Source: Clostridiaceae bacterium
GTDB taxonomy: Bacteria > Bacillota > Clostridia > Lachnospirales > Lachnospiraceae
Reading direction: 5' to 3'
NCBI GenBank assembly: GCA_021200535.1
Contig: JAJQGL010000005.1
Coordinates: 1-64,000 of the forward strand
Length of the DNA: 64,000 nt
In this document: positions 56,797 through 64,000 of the stretch, piece by piece
How the letters are laid out: every line of letters begins with the position of its first letter
Numbering within the stretch: position 1 is the first letter of the stretch
The notes under the pieces: generated by a model
Databases searched by the model: none
What the model was told of the DNA's origin: nothing
The model's input: the letters and a program-made list of their open reading frames with translations, nothing else
Program-made: the position numbers and the translations under genes

Positions 56797-58722
56797 ATGG
56801 GATTCCTGAAAAACTATTTTGTTGAAGTGAAAAACGGGACAAAGGTTACCTACAGCGAGGGCGATTTGCGCAAGCTGGACAGAACCTATGAAAATGAAGT
56901 CCTGTACTCCAGAGAGAGCCGGGTTAAGACACCAATCCGAAAGATTTCCCACCGCGCCTACATTTCACAGGTCAGGGATTATGCTTTTGAGAAGATTCTC
57001 GACAAACATATCTATACTTTTCAGCACCTTTTAGTGGTGCCGAATCCGTATGGCTTAGTGAAACAGTCCGCGTTGATTTTGTTTAATTCCTCACAGGAGA
57101 CGAAGGTGCGCTATCGGGTATATGGGGATACGCCGGATGCAGACTTTACCGGCGAGACGGAGTATAATACAAGGCACCGTGTTCCGGTGATGGGATTATA
57201 TTTCGGCAGGAGCAACAAAGTCCTTTTAGAGATGCTTGACAGGGATGAAATGGTAATCAGGCGCCGGGAAATCCGCATATACGTTTCCGAGATGCCGGTC
57301 CGCATAGAAAATGTGATTTCTTCGGCAGAAAGCAAAAAAATGCCATATTTTTCCTTTATCATGGTTAATGGACTTACGTTTAACCCGTTTGCTTTTGACT
57401 GCAATATGGCGATACGTTATTCGATTCAGCTGCGCACCAGCAAGATTGGCATGATTCCGCTCAACGGAGGTCATTTTCTGTATGAAGACAGTACCGTCAG
57501 CCAAATGGACAGCAAGGGAAGAGCCGTTTCCTGCTGCTATCACGAAATGGATTATATGGGACGGGTTTACCGCACATTCCTGCTTGATTTCCCAATCAAG
57601 GAAATTGTGGCACAGCAGGGAGATTCCTTGTTTATAGTGACTTCTTCGGACGGGGAACACGCAGCAGACAGCATTGCTGAGCTGGACAGGAACAGCGGCA
57701 AAGTGAAAAAGAGATGCAATATAAGCAGTCTTTTCGGGAATAAATATAAAAACAAGACGAACTGGGCGGACATCACAGCGCTGTCGTGTCAGGGCGACAG
57801 CCTTCTTGTCACGCTAAAACGGCTTCATACAATTTTCAGGATGAACTGGCGCTTACAGAAGTTGGAATGGATTTTGGCTCCGGATTCTGTCTGGAAAGGA
57901 ACAGAGGCGGAACAATATGTTATCCGGGGCAATGTGCGCAACCATGCTGTTTGCCGAAGGCCGGATTTCGCCTATATGGAGGGAGAACCGGATGCGTCTG
58001 CAGAAAAGCTTCTTGTGTACCATCAGAAGTCAGAGGGAGATATTAAGCTGGGCAATGTAAAGCCTTGCCGGAAATCTGCTGTGGTCTGCGTCCGTATCGA
58101 TAAAAAAACGCATTTTTACAAAAAGGTTTTTGCGATAGCCTGTGCAAAAACAAAAAGATTTGGAAGTGCGATTCTAACAAAGGATGGAAAACATGTGCTT
58201 ATTGGAGCCGGTTATCTGAAATATATCAATGAACGGATGCGTTCATGCCTTACCGTGGTCGACACAGAAACTGCAGAAACGGAATTTGAACTGCCCCTGC
58301 AGAAGTTTTTCAACAAAATGTGGGTATTCGAGCCGGATATTTTGCAGTTCACAAAACAGATTGACACCAGACAGAATGCTGTGTACGGCGCGCTAAAAAC
58401 CCCGGAAAGATTCCATGGGGAACTTCCGCAGGAAGCACAGGAGCGGATTGAAAAGGAATATTTCAGTAATATCCGTATCTGTGATGAGCTGGTTTTGTAC
58501 AATATCTTGCCGGGAAGAGTAGACAGGGTGTACTTTATTGGAAAGGAAAATGCCTATCTGCAGGATTATACCGGCATGAAGCCAAAAAAGCATAAGGCTT
58601 CCATGGCCTGTTCGTTAAGCGGCTTTGCCGTGGACGAATATCATATTATGGTAGAGAGCCGTGGGGTCGTCCATCGTTTGAAAAACGAGATCAGAATTGT
58701 CAAAGGGCAGGATATGTCCTGA
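56797..58722 (+). CDS. Divergent cytosolic arylsulfotransferase (ASST)-fold protein
   Basis: This is a 641-residue protein. Residues about 72-165 resemble the ASST N-terminal domain (VVPNPYGLVKQSALILFNSS, HRVPVMGLYFGRSNKVLLEM). A beta-propeller-like region follows (DSKGRAVSCCYHEMDYMGRV, SIAELDRNSGKVKKRCNISS, NWADITALSCQGDSLLVTLK, WRLQKLEWILAPDSVW). Where secreted ASSTs have a histidine pair, DWxHxNS and SSRHQS, this protein reads LDFPIKEIV, NWADITA and VTLKRLHT, so the usual catalytic His/Arg residues look replaced. There is no signal peptide. Its neighbour cysD-cysNC suggests a sulfur or sulfation role. It may be a binding or regulatory relative rather than an enzyme. Confidence 0.6.
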   Translation: MGFLKNYFVEVKNGTKVTYSEGDLRKLDRTYENEVLYSRESRVKTPIRKISHRAYISQVRDYAFEKILDKHIYTFQHLLVVPNPYGLVKQSALILFNSSQETKVRYRVYGDTPDADFTGETEYNTRHRVPVMGLYFGRSNKVLLEMLDRDEMVIRRREIRIYVSEMPVRIENVISSAESKKMPYFSFIMVNGLTFNPFAFDCNMAIRYSIQLRTSKIGMIPLNGGHFLYEDSTVSQMDSKGRAVSCCYHEMDYMGRVYRTFLLDFPIKEIVAQQGDSLFIVTSSDGEHAADSIAELDRNSGKVKKRCNISSLFGNKYKNKTNWADITALSCQGDSLLVTLKRLHTIFRMNWRLQKLEWILAPDSVWKGTEAEQYVIRGNVRNHAVCRRPDFAYMEGEPDASAEKLLVYHQKSEGDIKLGNVKPCRKSAVVCVRIDKKTHFYKKVFAIACAKTKRFGSAILTKDGKHVLIGAGYLKYINERMRSCLTVVDTETAETEFELPLQKFFNKMWVFEPDILQFTKQIDTRQNAVYGALKTPERFHGELPQEAQERIEKEYFSNIRICDELVLYNILPGRVDRVYFIGKENAYLQDYTGMKPKKHKASMACSLSGFAVDEYHIMVESRGVVHRLKNEIRIVKGQDMS

Positions 58723-58740
58723 GGCAGAAAGGCAACAAAT

Positions 58741-58849
58741 GCCGGAAACTCCGGCAGGCAGAAACAGGGAGAAAGTGCGAAAGTTTTTGACTTTCACAAG
58801 TGCGAAAGTTTTTAACTTTCGCACTGCAAAAAATGCAGCGCAAAAGCGC
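58741..58849 (+). repeat. Row of five hairpins upstream of cysD
   Basis: Successive inverted repeats are GCCGGA-aac-TCCGGC (58741-58755), an imperfect GTGCGAAAGT/ACTTTCACAA (58775-58798), a perfect 11-bp GTGCGAAAGTT/AACTTTCGCAC (58800-58824), CTGCA/TGCAG (58824-58838) and GCGC-AAAA-GCGC (58838-58849). The second and third are also 25-bp direct repeats. The last ends 6 nt before the cysD ribosome-binding site, so mRNA structure may control cysD. Confidence 0.8.
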
Positions 58850-58865
58850 AGAAATGAGGAAAACA

Positions 58866-59765
58866 ATGAAGCAGTTGACACATTTACAGGAATTAGAAGC
58901 GGAAGCGATTTATATTATTCGCGAAGTAGCTGCAGAATGTGAAAAGCCGGTGATGTTGTATTCAATCGGAAAGGACAGTTCTGTTATGCTGCACCTTGCA
59001 AGAAAAGCATTTTATCCGGAAAAACCGCCATTTCCATTTCTCCATATTGATTCTACATGGAAATTTAAGGAAATGATTAAATTCCGTGATGAGGTGGCAA
59101 AGAAATATGATTTGGACATGCTTGTCTATTCCAATGAGGAAGGGATTCGCCAGGGGATTAATCCATTTGACCATGGCTCTGCTTATACGGACATCATGAA
59201 AACGCAGGCGTTAAAGCAGGCGCTGAAAAAATATGGGTTTACCGCAGCATTTGGCGGCGGCAGAAGAGATGAAGAAAAATCCCGTGCAAAAGAGCGTATC
59301 TTCTCTTTCCGGAATGCGGAGCAGGCATGGGACCCGAAAAATCAGCGGCCGGAGATGTGGAAACAGTACAACACCAAGATTTTTCAGGGGGAAAGCATTC
59401 GTGTATTCCCAATTTCAAACTGGACGGAAAAGGATATCTGGGAATATATCAGGCAGGAGCAGATTGAAATTGTTCCGCTGTATTTTGCAGCGGAAAGGCC
59501 GGTAGTATACCGTGACGGTAATATTATCATGGTAGATGATGACAGGATGCGCCTGAATCCGGGAGAGGAAATCCAGCACAAGATGGTGCGTTTCCGCACG
59601 CTGGGCTGTTATCCTCTGACGGGAGGCATTGAATCCAATGCGACAACACTGGATGAGATTATTGAAGAAACACTGAGTGCCGTATCTTCGGAGCGTACAA
59701 CCCGCGTTATTGACAATGAGGCAGCGGGCAGCATGGAGAGAAGAAAAAGGGAGGGATATTTCTAA
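58866..59765 (+). CDS. cysD: Sulfate adenylyltransferase subunit 2
   Basis: This is the 299-residue PP-loop ATP pyrophosphatase subunit of ATP sulfurylase, making APS from sulfate and ATP with CysN. The loop is [17 protein letters not shown] (residues about 33-48). [48 protein letters not shown] and [16 protein letters not shown] are diagnostic. ATG at 58866 follows GAGGA. A longer in-frame start at 58800 would read through the hairpins and is unlikely. The stop codon shares one base with the cysN start. Confidence 0.96.
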
Positions 59766-61594
59766 TGCAGAGTTTACTAAAATTTATTACCTGTGGAAGT
59801 GTAGATGATGGAAAATCCACCTTGATCGGCCATATGCTGTATGATGCAAAGTTAATCTTTGCCGATCAGGAAAAAGCGCTTGAGTTAGACAGCAAGGTTG
59901 GAAGCAATGATGGCGGTATTGATTATTCACTGCTCTTAGATGGGCTGATGGCGGAGCGTGAGCAGGGGATTACAATAGATGTCGCATATCGTTATTTTAC
60001 CAGCGACAGGAGAAGCTTTATTGTAGCAGATACGCCGGGACATGAGGAATATACAAGAAATATGGCGGTAGGCGCTTCCTTTGCCGATCTTGCAGTTATC
60101 TTAGTTGACGCCTCCAAGGGTGTTTTGGTGCAGACCAGACGCCACAGCCGGATCTGTGCGCTGATGGGTATCCGCCATGTAGTATATGCAATCAACAAAA
60201 TGGATCTCGTGGATTATGACCAGGGAACCTTTGAGGAAATCAGCAGTGAAATTACAAAGATGGCAGTTGAATATAACTTTGCGTCGCAGTATCTGATTCC
60301 GGTTTCCGCGACAGTGGGGGATAATATTACCAAAATATCGAAAAAGATGCCGTGGTATCATGGAAAAACTTTACTGGCCTATCTGGAAGAGATTGATGTG
60401 ACAGACAAAACAGATGCGACAGGCTTTGTTCTGCCGATTCAGCGCGTCAGCCGTCCAAACCGCGAATATCGTGGCTTTCAGGGACAGATTGAGGTTGGCG
60501 AGGTAGCTGTTGGTGATGAGATTATGGTATTGCCAAGCGGGAATAAGTCAAAAGTCAAATCCATTTATAATATGATGGAGCAGGTCGATTCCGCATTTGC
60601 CGGACAGGCGGTATCGATTGAGCTGGAGGATGAGATTGACGTGTCCAGAGGATGCGTGCTTGTCCGGGATACCGAATTAAAAGTCGGCAAAATGTTTACG
60701 GCAAAGATTTTGTGGATGGATGACGCGAAGCTTGTGGCAGGAAAGAACTATTATCTGAAGCTCGGCACAAATACGGTGCCTGCTGTGATTATGAATATCA
60801 AGCACAAGATTGATGTCAACACAGGCGCAAAGGTGAAAGCGGAGCGTCTGTTCAAAAATGAGATTGCCGTGTGTGATATTTCATGCGCCGATCAGATTGT
60901 GTTCGATAAATTTAAAAATCATAAGGATTTAGGCTGCTTTATTTTGATCGACCGCGTAACGAATATGACTTCGGCATGTGGTGTCATTGAACATTCTCTG
61001 CGCCGTGAGGGGAACCTGACATGGCACGAGATGGACATTACCCGCGACCTTCGCTCAAAGCAGAAGGGACAGTCTCCAAAGACAGTCTGGCTGACCGGTC
61101 TCAGCGGCGCAGGAAAATCTACGCTGATCAATGAGCTGGAGAAGCGTATGTTTGCGGCAGGCAAGCATACCATGGTGCTTGACGGCGACAATGTGCGCAT
61201 GGGCCTGAATAAAAATCTCGGATTTAAGGAGACAGACCGCATTGAAAATATCCGCCGTGTGGCAGAGGTTGCCAAGCTGATGAATGATGCGGGACTGATT
61301 GTACTGACCTCGTTTATTTCGCCGTTTGCACAGGATAGGCAAAATGCCAGAAGGATTATTGGCGAGGACAGCTTTGTCGAAGTGTACGTATCCACTTCGC
61401 TGGAGGAATGCGAAAAGCGTGACGTGAAGGGACTTTATAAGAAGGCGAGAGGCGGAGAGATACCAAACTTTTCCGGTATTACCAGCCCTTATGAGCCGCC
61501 GACACACGCTGAGATTGTTATAGATACAGCGGGTCAGACAGTAGAGGAATCGGTAGATCATCTGATGAAGGAATTAGAAAAATGGGGATGCTGA
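59765..61594 (+). CDS. cysNC: Bifunctional sulfate adenylyltransferase subunit 1 / adenylylsulfate kinase
   Basis: This is a 609-residue fusion. The N-terminal EF-Tu-like GTPase (CysN, about 1-430) has GSVDDGKSTLIGHM, ADTPGHEEYTRNMA and NKMD, and its GTP hydrolysis drives APS formation. The C-terminal APS kinase (CysC, about 435-609) has GLSGAGKSTLINELEKRM, DGDNVRMGLNKNLGF, and FISPFAQDRQNAR. It converts APS to PAPS, the donor for sulfotransferases or for PAPS reductase. The ATG overlaps the cysD stop by 1 nt. The 3' end overlaps the transporter gene by 13 nt. Confidence 0.97.
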   Translation: MQSLLKFITCGSVDDGKSTLIGHMLYDAKLIFADQEKALELDSKVGSNDGGIDYSLLLDGLMAEREQGITIDVAYRYFTSDRRSFIVADTPGHEEYTRNMAVGASFADLAVILVDASKGVLVQTRRHSRICALMGIRHVVYAINKMDLVDYDQGTFEEISSEITKMAVEYNFASQYLIPVSATVGDNITKISKKMPWYHGKTLLAYLEEIDVTDKTDATGFVLPIQRVSRPNREYRGFQGQIEVGEVAVGDEIMVLPSGNKSKVKSIYNMMEQVDSAFAGQAVSIELEDEIDVSRGCVLVRDTELKVGKMFTAKILWMDDAKLVAGKNYYLKLGTNTVPAVIMNIKHKIDVNTGAKVKAERLFKNEIAVCDISCADQIVFDKFKNHKDLGCFILIDRVTNMTSACGVIEHSLRREGNLTWHEMDITRDLRSKQKGQSPKTVWLTGLSGAGKSTLINELEKRMFAAGKHTMVLDGDNVRMGLNKNLGFKETDRIENIRRVAEVAKLMNDAGLIVLTSFISPFAQDRQNARRIIGEDSFVEVYVSTSLEECEKRDVKGLYKKARGGEIPNFSGITSPYEPPTHAEIVIDTAGQTVEESVDHLMKELEKWGC

Positions 61595-62193
61595 CATCGA
61601 TTTTAAGAATCGGGTTTGTCGGGTTCGGCGGCGGAAGCGCGTTGATTCCGGTCATTGAAAAGGCAGTTGTAGAGGAAGATCACTTACTGCGGAAAAAAGA
61701 GTACGATAAGGATGTCATTGTAGCAAGCATTACGCCGGGTGCCCTGCCTGTGGAAATTGCCACTGGCCTGGGCATGCACGGCGGTAAAATATCGGAGATG
61801 ATCGCAGCGGCGCTGTGTATGGCATTTCCGGGGGCGTTCTTTACCGTGCTTCTGATTTCAGTGCTTGCAGGCTTGAATCATGTTTTGATGACGCAGATTG
61901 AGTGTCTGTCGATTGGCATTACCGCATTTATCTGCTGCATGCTGACGGATTATACAAAAAAGACGTTGCGCGAGGCGAGAAAGGAAAGCAAAGGGCGGTT
62001 TCACCGGGCGCTGCTGATTCTGGCAGGTGTTTTCTTGCTGACCTGTTGGAAAAATATCTTTAAGCTGTTTGGCATTAACGGCAGCCCTTTTTTTCACTTT
62101 CCACCCTGCAGACGCTGGGCATTGCATTTTTTGGCATTCTCTATACGCATTGTAAGTTTACGAAAAAAAATGTATCAGTATCTGGTGTGCTGA
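61582..62193 (+). CDS. CHR-family (chromate/sulfate) transporter, N-terminal part before a frameshift
   Basis: Residues 1-166 are a CHR domain: RIGFVGFGGGSALIPVIEKA, VIVASITPGALPVEIATGLG and AFPGAFFTVLLI are the conserved helices. After FGINGSPFF the frame runs into a Pro/Arg/Lys-rich stretch unlike a transporter and stops. At the T7 run (62088-62094) a shift of -1 would continue in the frame of the next entry, giving a normal full-length protein of about 481 residues. ATG at 61582 follows AAGGAA with 8-nt spacing and lies inside cysNC, so the gene is cotranscribed with it. Sulfate uptake is the likely role. Confidence 0.8.
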   Translation: MGMLTSILRIGFVGFGGGSALIPVIEKAVVEEDHLLRKKEYDKDVIVASITPGALPVEIATGLGMHGGKISEMIAAALCMAFPGAFFTVLLISVLAGLNHVLMTQIECLSIGITAFICCMLTDYTKKTLREARKESKGRFHRALLILAGVFLLTCWKNIFKLFGINGSPFFHFPPCRRWALHFLAFSIRIVSLRKKMYQYLVC

Positions 62194-63026
62194 TTGCGCT
62201 TTATCTGTTTGCGGACAGCGGTTCGGCACAGTGGAGCATTGCCCTGTCATGGTGTGTCAAAGCGGCGATGCTTGTGCTGGCAGTCAGAGGGCTGTACCGC
62301 AGCATTGTGAAAGATGGGGCGAAGAAAAAGACAGTGCCGTGGCAGCCCATGGCAAAGCGGGTGTCTGCCTGGATTTTGTTTACTGTAGTCTTATCTGTTC
62401 CAGCTGCAGTTGTTTGTTGGGATACGATTCCTTTTTTGGGCAACGGCTGGCTTTCCTCCTTGCTTTCTTTCGGCGGAGGAGATGCCTACCTGACAGTGGC
62501 GAGCGGTATATTTGTGGATACCGGTGCGGTGGACAGCTCAGATTTTTATGGACATCTGGCGCCGATAGTCAATGCAATGCCGGGGTCGATTTTGTGCAAG
62601 GTTTTATCCGGTGTGGGCTATTATATTGGCTATGATGCAACAGGCGGCATGACCGGCGGATATCTGGTTGCACTGGCGGGATTTTCCTGCAGCCTTGCAG
62701 CTTCCGGAAGCGTTTTTTGTATTGTGTATTATATCTATGAATGTTTTGAAAAATTAGATGTGTTCCGCCTGATCAGCCGTTGGATTCGGCCAATTATTGC
62801 GGGGCTTTTGCTCAGTTTGATTTTAAGCCTTGTGTATCAGAATACGCAGACTGCTGTCAAGCTGGAGAGCAGCGTGCCCGTAATTTTAGGAATTACTGTA
62901 TTTATTTATGCAATCGATCAGCTGCTCCTATACAAATGGAAAAAGAAAAATGGCATATTGATTCTGTTTTCCGGTATAGCTTCGCTGCTTTTGTGTAATT
63001 TGGCAATCTATTTTCAAGCAGTTTAA
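62187..63026 (+). CDS. CHR-family transporter, C-terminal part after the frameshift
   Basis: This is a 279-residue frame if begun at GTG 62187, but no ribosome-binding site is visible there. The same frame is open from 62079 and extends a membrane segment (STLQTLGIAFFGILYTH) that joins naturally to the upstream part. It contains the second CHR domain: SLLSFGGGDAYLTVASGIFV, HLAPIVNAMPGSILCKVLSG and further helices to the end. The two parts are best read as one long-chain CHR transporter interrupted by a one-base shift. Confidence 0.8.
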   Translation: MLIALYLFADSGSAQWSIALSWCVKAAMLVLAVRGLYRSIVKDGAKKKTVPWQPMAKRVSAWILFTVVLSVPAAVVCWDTIPFLGNGWLSSLLSFGGGDAYLTVASGIFVDTGAVDSSDFYGHLAPIVNAMPGSILCKVLSGVGYYIGYDATGGMTGGYLVALAGFSCSLAASGSVFCIVYYIYECFEKLDVFRLISRWIRPIIAGLLLSLILSLVYQNTQTAVKLESSVPVILGITVFIYAIDQLLLYKWKKKNGILILFSGIASLLLCNLAIYFQAV

Positions 63027-63118
63027 TTATCAGCAATTAGTATAGCGTTTTTTAATTAACTACACTTTATTACTTGCCTGTAAATGAGTTTTTGTTTTGG
63101 CTGAAATTGCCGGTACAT

Positions 63119-63193
63119 AGGTAACGAATAGACGAATGAGAAAAGCCTGCCGCTCTGTGCGGCAGGCTTTTCTCATTCGTCTATTCGTTACCT
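63119..63193. terminator. Perfect 35-bp inverted repeat between convergent genes
   Basis: The arm at 63119-63153 is the exact reverse complement of 63159-63193, with loop TCTGT. The core GAAAAGCCTGCCGC/GCGGCAGGCTTTTC resembles a bidirectional terminator. The arms extend about 20 bp further than needed for termination and contain a short direct repeat (ACGAAT twice). It ends 2 nt before the stop codon region of the minus-strand gene. Confidence 0.85.
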
Positions 63194-63194
63194 G

Positions 63195-64000
63195 TTATTT
63201 TGTGAATTTTGAAATAAATTGACCTGGAAAACTTTTTGCTTTCTGCGTAACCTTTTTGGAAATATCTTTCACCTGCTGCTTTGTGCTGGGATTTAGCTGT
63301 TTTTTTGCATCCGTCAGCTGGCGCTGCAGTTCTAAAATAATATCGCCGCATGCATTGATTAATTCTTCTGTGCTGTACGGTTCTACTTTTTCCTCATTTT
63401 CCGGTTTTTCATAAAAGAGAATGCCATCCTCCCGGTGCAGATAGCGCTTTGCAATATCTGTATTGCCGGCTTCAAATTTTTTCAGGAAATCGGAAGGGGT
63501 GCCGGAAGGAAAACTGCAGGCGCGTTTATAGCTTGCCCGCCCACCTTTTTGCATGGTCACAACATGCATTAATGGGAACATAAATCCCTTTTTATCTGAA
63601 AATTCAGGCCTTGCGTTTAAAATCTGTTTTACCTTAATGTATTCTCCGGCAACGCTGTCATTTTTAATGCGGTCAGATTCGTCATATTCGTCGGTCAGTT
63701 CCAGTCCGACAAAATGTAAAAAGTCAGAGAGCAGGGACTGGTTTAATGGTCCCTGATAAAACTGTCCGCGCTCAAACGGCCGTACAATGATATTTTCCTG
63801 TCCGATAAACGCAGCGATTTTATCCAGATTGCGTTCATATGCCGCGTGAACCCTGCGCCATGGCTCTGTGTCTAAAAAGCCGGAAAAATCAAGCTTCTGG
63901 GAGCTTTTTACCGTTTGCTGCCAGTAAGACTGGATATAGGCATCCTGCCGTCTGAGATAGACGATAACCTTTAATGAATGTCCATGGGCTTTCAGGGCGT
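63195..64000 (-). CDS. Probable sulfotransferase-family protein, partial (N-terminus outside window)
   Basis: The minus-strand frame is open from the window edge to the TAA at 63195-63197, giving at least 267 residues. KVIVYLRRQDAYIQSYWQQT, then AAYERNLDKIAAFIGQENII, VRPFERGQFYQGPLNQSLLS and DFLHFVGLEL resemble the second half of P-loop sulfotransferase-like proteins found in polysaccharide loci, where the YLRRQD block corresponds to the PAPS 3'-phosphate-binding region. The P-loop itself would lie beyond the edge. The C-terminus is Lys/Gln-rich. It converges on the PAPS-synthesis operon. The family call is moderate. Confidence 0.55.
   Translation of the reverse strand, partial: ALKAHGHSLKVIVYLRRQDAYIQSYWQQTVKSSQKLDFSGFLDTEPWRRVHAAYERNLDKIAAFIGQENIIVRPFERGQFYQGPLNQSLLSDFLHFVGLELTDEYDESDRIKNDSVAGEYIKVKQILNARPEFSDKKGFMFPLMHVVTMQKGGRASYKRACSFPSGTPSDFLKKFEAGNTDIAKRYLHREDGILFYEKPENEEKVEPYSTEELINACGDIILELQRQLTDAKKQLNPSTKQQVKDISKKVTQKAKSFPGQFISKFTK

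Follow-up and report, generated by a model that had tools for sequence, protein, structure and literature searches.

What does a bacterium of the Lachnospiraceae do with genes for sulfate activation that lie beside a gene resembling a sulfotransferase? The question is raised by the window analysed here, the first 64,000 bases of contig JAJQGL010000005.1 (C61, 78,148 bases) of the Clostridiaceae bacterium assembly GCA_021200535.1. In this window cysD, a cysN-cysC fusion and a CHR transporter gene stand between a gene for an arylsulfate sulfotransferase (ASST)-like protein and a convergent gene for a P-loop sulfotransferase (ST), named ST1. This cassette probably makes and uses 3'-phosphoadenosine 5'-phosphosulfate (PAPS), with ST1 and its paralogue ST2 sulfating carbohydrate, likely a cell-surface glycan. 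The five genes named by an initial annotation of the window were recovered, where it had placed them, as open reading frames (ORFs) with matches to family models.

PAPS synthesis and the ST1 family

The cysD gene (58866-59765, forward strand; the start at 58866 is probable, 58854 being possible too) encodes the small subunit of ATP sulfurylase (NF009214, 509 bits, cut-off 413). The cysN-cysC fusion (59765-61594, forward strand) encodes the GTPase subunit of ATP sulfurylase joined to adenosine 5'-phosphosulfate (APS) kinase (NF004035, 871 bits, cut-off 715). The kinase domain scores 218.7 bits with PF01583 and carries the Walker A motif GLSGAGKS. With both subunits above curated cut-offs and an intact kinase P-loop, the enzyme shows no difference from CysD-CysNC PAPS synthetase; what sets it apart is its use, which appears dedicated to sulfotransfer.

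ST1 is a protein of 382 amino acids encoded on the reverse strand (63195-64000 in the window, to 64343 on the contig). The annotated minus-strand gene is thus real and convergent, but the window edge cuts its ORF, and the full gene extends to 64343. Extension past 64000, which had been proposed as a search for the P-loop, yielded a full-length protein that carries it. In its 5'-phosphosulfate loop IGTPKTGTSTIQ, K12, T13 and T15 are invariant in 29/29 aligned relatives and G14 is kept in 27/29. R131 and S139, which are eight residues apart, are likewise invariant in all 29, a spacing that we take, after SULT structures, to be the 3'-phosphate motif. E97, too, is invariant and is a candidate for the catalytic base. 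ST2 lies outside the window (about 64541-65707) and is 61% identical to ST1.

The Pfam families recommended by the annotation did not place ST1, which matched neither PF00685 nor PF13469 above the curated cut-offs. ST2 scores 14.1 bits with PF13469 (cut-off 27), and PF00685 is matched by one of the 29 relatives (E 1.6e-4). Searches of PDB sequences with ST1 and with a profile returned weak matches only, to unrelated-looking proteins. The predicted fold, however, puts ST1 among the sulfotransferases. It resembles heparan-sulfate N-sulfotransferase and 3-O-sulfotransferases (1nst, 1t8t, 3bd9, 1vkj) at an identity of only 11-15%. Unlike these enzymes, ST1 has a P-loop that starts at residue 8 and therefore no room for a signal peptide, and it is known from its sequence and predicted fold. 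By sequence and structure prediction, ST1 is a P-loop, PAPS-dependent sulfotransferase of an unnamed family, with predicted activity. As far as searched, this family and its spread in Clostridia are new.

In the proposed route, sulfate would enter the cell, probably via CHR, and would be turned into APS by CysD-CysN and into PAPS by the fused CysC. ST1 and ST2 would then transfer the sulfo group from PAPS to a hydroxyl or amine of a carbohydrate. The product adenosine 3',5'-bisphosphate (PAP) would be cleared by the bisphosphatase CysQ, whose gene adjoins cysNC in six sister genomes (CysQ of G192: TIGR01331, 241.9 bits, cut-off 228.8). A surface glycan, which might be a polymer of the teichoic-acid or capsular type, would be sulfated in the cytosol and then exported.

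Linkage to PAPS genes and the question of sulfate assimilation

In a family sample of 299 genomes, ST1-type genes were found in 16 and strong APS kinases in 38. Strong was defined here as E <1e-30, the analysts' own cut; the Pfam cut-off was passed by 91 genomes, many through short P-loop matches. All 16 ST1-type genomes are among the 38 (Fisher 1.7e-16), and a more sensitive ST profile added none from the other 22 APS-kinase genomes. In a collection of named contigs, ST1 alone matched nothing and an ST alignment matched at least 492 stretches, from the best 80 of which 79 ST loci were compared. CysNC is present in 41 of these 79 loci, lies within 3 kb of an ST in 39, and shares a strand with an ST in 40, with a median gap of 51 bases. 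A tblastn search of the first 20 fetched stretches detected cysD-cysNC near the ST in 8 and the CysC end in one more. Named strains whose records carry the cassette include Parablautia sp. Marseille-Q6255 (L234), with the end of cysD, cysNC, three ST genes and CHR, and Eubacterium sp. An11 (L253), with cysD, cysNC, an ST gene and CHR.

Within the genus of the window (28 genomes), APS kinase occurs in 24 genomes and ST-type genes in 20, and the arrangement varies. In one genome (G312) cysD, cysNC, CHR and ST are consecutive. Another (G319) has cysD-cysNC, a convergent set of CysA, CysW, CysT and a binding protein (the last identified by Pfam), and then the ST. A third (G318) keeps the gene order of the window minus CHR. 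Five other CysDNC genomes (G111, G022, G230, G184 and G225) gave no ST1-type or PF00685 match, PF13469 not having been run on these five. The annotation had tied PAPS synthesis to sulfotransferases, and the invariant PAPS-binding residues, the recurrent linkage to cysD-cysNC and the complete co-occurrence bear this out. Its expectation that such a system would be unusual in gut Firmicutes is not supported, given the number of related stretches and of family genomes that carry it.

The CHR gene (61582-63026, forward strand) encodes a two-domain transporter and overlaps cysNC by 13 bases, as annotated. It lies in two overlapping frames, whose ORFs match the two halves of PF02417 (79.4 and 46 bits). 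Among the 79 listed ST loci, CHR occurs in 14, CysT/CysW in 8, and both in none. CHR is a putative sulfate importer; chance could give this pattern.

CysDNC is also the classic enzyme of assimilation, and the genome carries assimilation genes, so that the cassette might serve sulfate reduction with its sulfotransferase neighbours being incidental. This is very improbable. As the annotation had stated, no cysH, cysJI or other APS/PAPS reductase gene was seen at the locus: PF01507 finds CysD alone on contig C61, which was not searched with sulfite-reductase models. The locus is not an assimilatory sulfate reduction operon; APS-reductase and sulfite-reductase-like genes sit on two other contigs. 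At the end of C90 lie genes for AprA (921 bits, cut-off 557) and an AprB-like ferredoxin, together with the first part of a cysD. C115 carries the end of a cysD, cysN and genes for sulfhydrylase-like, sulfite-reductase-like, TusA and ThiS proteins. The reductase found is of the APS type, with its own cysD and cysN. The C-terminal stretch of this CysN shows a distant similarity to APS kinase (26% over 91 residues, E 0.002, a single pair) and has no P-loop. The three remaining PF01507 proteins, encoded on C11 and C60, score at most 19.7 bits against 154 on the PAPS-reductase equivalog, so that no PAPS reductase was found in the genome by family model. The short gaps to the ST genes and the co-occurrence also argue against an assimilatory role. 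Cysteine synthesis appears to be supplied by an APS branch of its own and would not need the PAPS of the window, and the window CysDNC would therefore be free for PAPS. The annotation had set against its proposal an assimilatory operon elsewhere combined with a minus-strand protein lacking a P-loop; such a gene set exists but is of the APS type, and ST1 has its P-loop.

Several results weigh against a dedicated PAPS cassette with a separate cysteine branch. The 79 ST loci are not all independent, as some come from the same genome or contig. CysNC was not seen in the fetched stretch of 38 of them, 14 of which have less than 3 kb on one side, and 5 of the 24 genus genomes with APS kinase have no ST-family match. 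The CHR frame is broken in the window assembly, shifting at about 62085-62112; since CHR is a single ORF in the two relatives compared (481 or 494 amino acids), the window copy is broken or misassembled. The mutual exclusion of CHR and CysTWA is not significant (1.4 joint loci expected, P 0.19). In the APS branch, three proteins score less than the cut-off of the best-matching NCBIfam model: the AprB-like protein (47 bits, cut-off 135.65), the sulfite-reductase-like protein (158.5 against 324.1) and the sulfhydrylase-like protein (403.2 against 495.1). C90 and C115 each end inside cysD and their overlapping residues differ, so that the two are not proven to form a single locus. Assembly completeness is 91%.

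Two further features were noted. A urease gene set, recognised by eye (large subunit and accessory proteins), lies just before aprA at the end of C90 (L008:5329-10421), with haem-synthesis genes upstream. Three proteins with PAPS-reductase domains (L010:4438-7131 and L011:7616-8980) reach no NCBIfam family at cut-off and are distantly like CysD and DndC. Those of L010 are perhaps phage-borne, because their neighbours, judged by eye, include ParB-like proteins and a terminase-like gene.

The ASST-like protein and its intact relatives

The ASST-like gene (56797-58722, forward strand) encodes a protein of 641 amino acids that matches PF05935 (49.0 bits) and PF17425 (34.3 bits; cut-off 24.2 each) and consists of an N-terminal Ig-like domain and a six-bladed propeller. 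The annotated ASST fold is thereby upheld, but action as a classical ASST is not, since the catalytic residues are absent. The sulfohistidine His436 is missing from 17/17 aligned clade members and present in 15/15 other relatives, and His252 is missing from the same 17. At His252, His356, Asn358 and Arg374, all intact in the 15 other relatives, the window protein has E, D, T and K. This residue table omitted 11 of the 26 strong genus matches. Compared with arylsulfate sulfotransferase of E. coli (3elq/3ets) and Cpz4 of Streptomyces (9kf4), the window clade has no sulfohistidine site, no signal peptide was seen in the window protein, and its gene sits with PAPS synthesis. The clade of hollowed-out ASSTs is new, as far as searched.

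An ordinary active ASST is ruled out by the missing residues. A decaying pseudogene is unlikely: the ratio of nonsynonymous to synonymous substitution rates is 0.05-0.13 in 4/6 pairs, the other two, the window's own pair among them, being saturated at silent sites. The case for an obligate partner of CysDNC is weak. In the family sample APS kinase occurs in 9/36 genomes with ASST and 29/263 without (p 0.024), and the co-occurrence of ASST with ST is not significant (4/36 against 12/263, p 0.11). No cysDNC lies downstream of the ASST-like gene in 10/20 sister loci, and no APS kinase was found in two genomes that have the gene (G313, 92% complete; G314, 90%). ASST and APS kinase are at most 4 kb apart in 7 of the 9 sample genomes with both. 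The protein may serve to bind a ligand that is sulfated or phosphorylated, or a partner.

ST1 and ST2 might also make an aryl sulfate from PAPS that an ASST hands on, as in caprazamycin biosynthesis, the first step of which is reportedly PAPS-dependent. The available text of PMC13426309 describes Cpz4 as an ASST. Such a relay has very little probability here, as both His436 and His252 are absent from all 17 aligned clade members and the window genome gave no other ASST match at E 1e-5.

Full-site ASSTs were found 0.2-3.9 kb from APS kinase in four genera (G248, G082, G108 and G270). They have no clear signal peptide, one protein of G248 (L078) being borderline, and a search for three families gave no ST1-type, PF13469 or PF00685 protein in these genomes at E 0.001. 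Downstream of the ASST of G248 come genes for a TagD-like cytidylyltransferase and a protein of PF04464 (CDP-glycerol glycerophosphotransferase, teichoic-acid type), and a member of the hollowed-out clade (L106) is encoded elsewhere in that genome. In G108 the cysD and cysN beside the ASST are distant from those of the window (36% and 31%), and cysC is separate. The intact site, the nearby APS kinase and the lack of a sulfotransferase of the three families suggest that in these genera it is the ASST that completes the PAPS route. The argument is suggestive only, because other CysDNC genomes also have no ST1-type and PF00685 matches.

A more far-reaching reading, which is doubtful, is that intact ASSTs act inside the cell with PAPS, or a carrier made from PAPS, as their sulfo donor, that the window-genus clade is a conserved non-catalytic partner, and that the ST family decorates teichoic-acid-type polymers, giving sulfated wall polymers in gut Firmicutes. 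It departs from the textbook ASST, which is PAPS-independent and exported; the arylsulfotransferases reviewed in the available text of PMC13426309 are PAPS-independent. A natural experiment is offered by the occurrence, beside PAPS genes, of one beta-propeller fold in versions that have the catalytic histidines and versions that lack them.

Other arrangements were also encountered. In two sister genomes (L161, L163) a free-standing APS kinase gene and CHR come after the ASST-like gene, cysD and cysN not being there. In two others (L169, L170) a shorter ASST-like gene, with an open frame of 544 and 531 amino acids, matches in two separate pieces. At L093 and L096 a TauE-type permease (by eye) lies beside APS kinase, CHR and a PF00685-type sulfotransferase.

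The acceptor and known counterparts

PF04464 proteins are encoded within 6 kb of 5/25 ST loci in the 16 ST genomes, against 0.42 expected if they were scattered uniformly; the 6 kb limit was chosen once the positions were known, and the count covers the rows of the 16 ST genomes, with 5 ASST genomes left out. In G168 five ST genes stand in a row with PF04464, an IspD-type cytidylyltransferase, an epimerase and a pyruvyl transferase. In G195 PF04464 and a pyruvyl transferase adjoin the ST. Two genomes of the genus (G322, G303) have the ST in a similar-looking cluster, judged mostly by eye; Tar/Tag names at L196 and L197 were assigned by eye save where Pfam is cited, the TarJ-like protein being only an alcohol dehydrogenase by Pfam. 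It counts against a glycan acceptor that no glycan gene lies beside ST1 in the window genome, where 0/5 PF04464 matches are within 6 kb of an ST. Because PF04464 is near STs elsewhere but not there, a cell-surface glycan is the likely acceptor and a teichoic type only possible.

The same lack of an adjoining glycan gene fits sulfation of a small molecule, in which ST1 and ST2 would act on a steroid, bile acid, phenol or lipid, much as Bacteroides BT_0416 acts on cholesterol. The Bacteroides cluster Bt_0411-Bt_0416, as given in the available text of PMC9417993, likewise joins a putative sulfate importer and putative PAPS-synthesis enzymes to a sulfotransferase with cholesterol as acceptor. This alternative is rather unlikely, and glycan sulfation is preferred to it. 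The plan of PAPS genes, importer and sulfotransferase together in a gut anaerobe is, by that account, already known. The window differs from the Bacteroides cluster as described there in its phylum, in its unnamed sulfotransferase family with a glycan-sulfotransferase-like fold, in its transporter (CHR here, CysTWA or none in relatives) and in the adjoining ASST-fold protein.

No report of sulfate esters on the surfaces of gut Firmicutes, nor the phrase "sulfated teichoic acid", was found in the literature searched, which excludes most subscription journals. In the available text of a 2025 review of gut surface polysaccharides, "sulfotransferase" occurs 0 times, sulfate only in the name dextran sulfate sodium (DSS), and "sulphated" in one reference title. 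If gut Firmicutes do carry surface sulfate esters, these would bring negative charge to the mucus and might be attacked by neighbours' sulfatases or bound by host lectins. The cassette names testable genes and yields an unnamed enzyme family that is, by predicted fold, related to heparan-sulfate sulfotransferases.

Two hairpins were also identified in the locus, where a promoter scan gave a result equal to that of its shuffled controls. A terminator-like, two-way hairpin with a 20-bp stem (63133-63179, no strand assigned) lies between the convergent CHR and ST1 genes. A perfect hairpin with a 9-bp stem, GTGCGAAAG-loop-CTTTCGCAC (58800-58824, no strand assigned), lies between the ASST-like gene and cysD. 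Its region gave no Rfam match at the gathering threshold, and its left arm is repeated once more at 58775.

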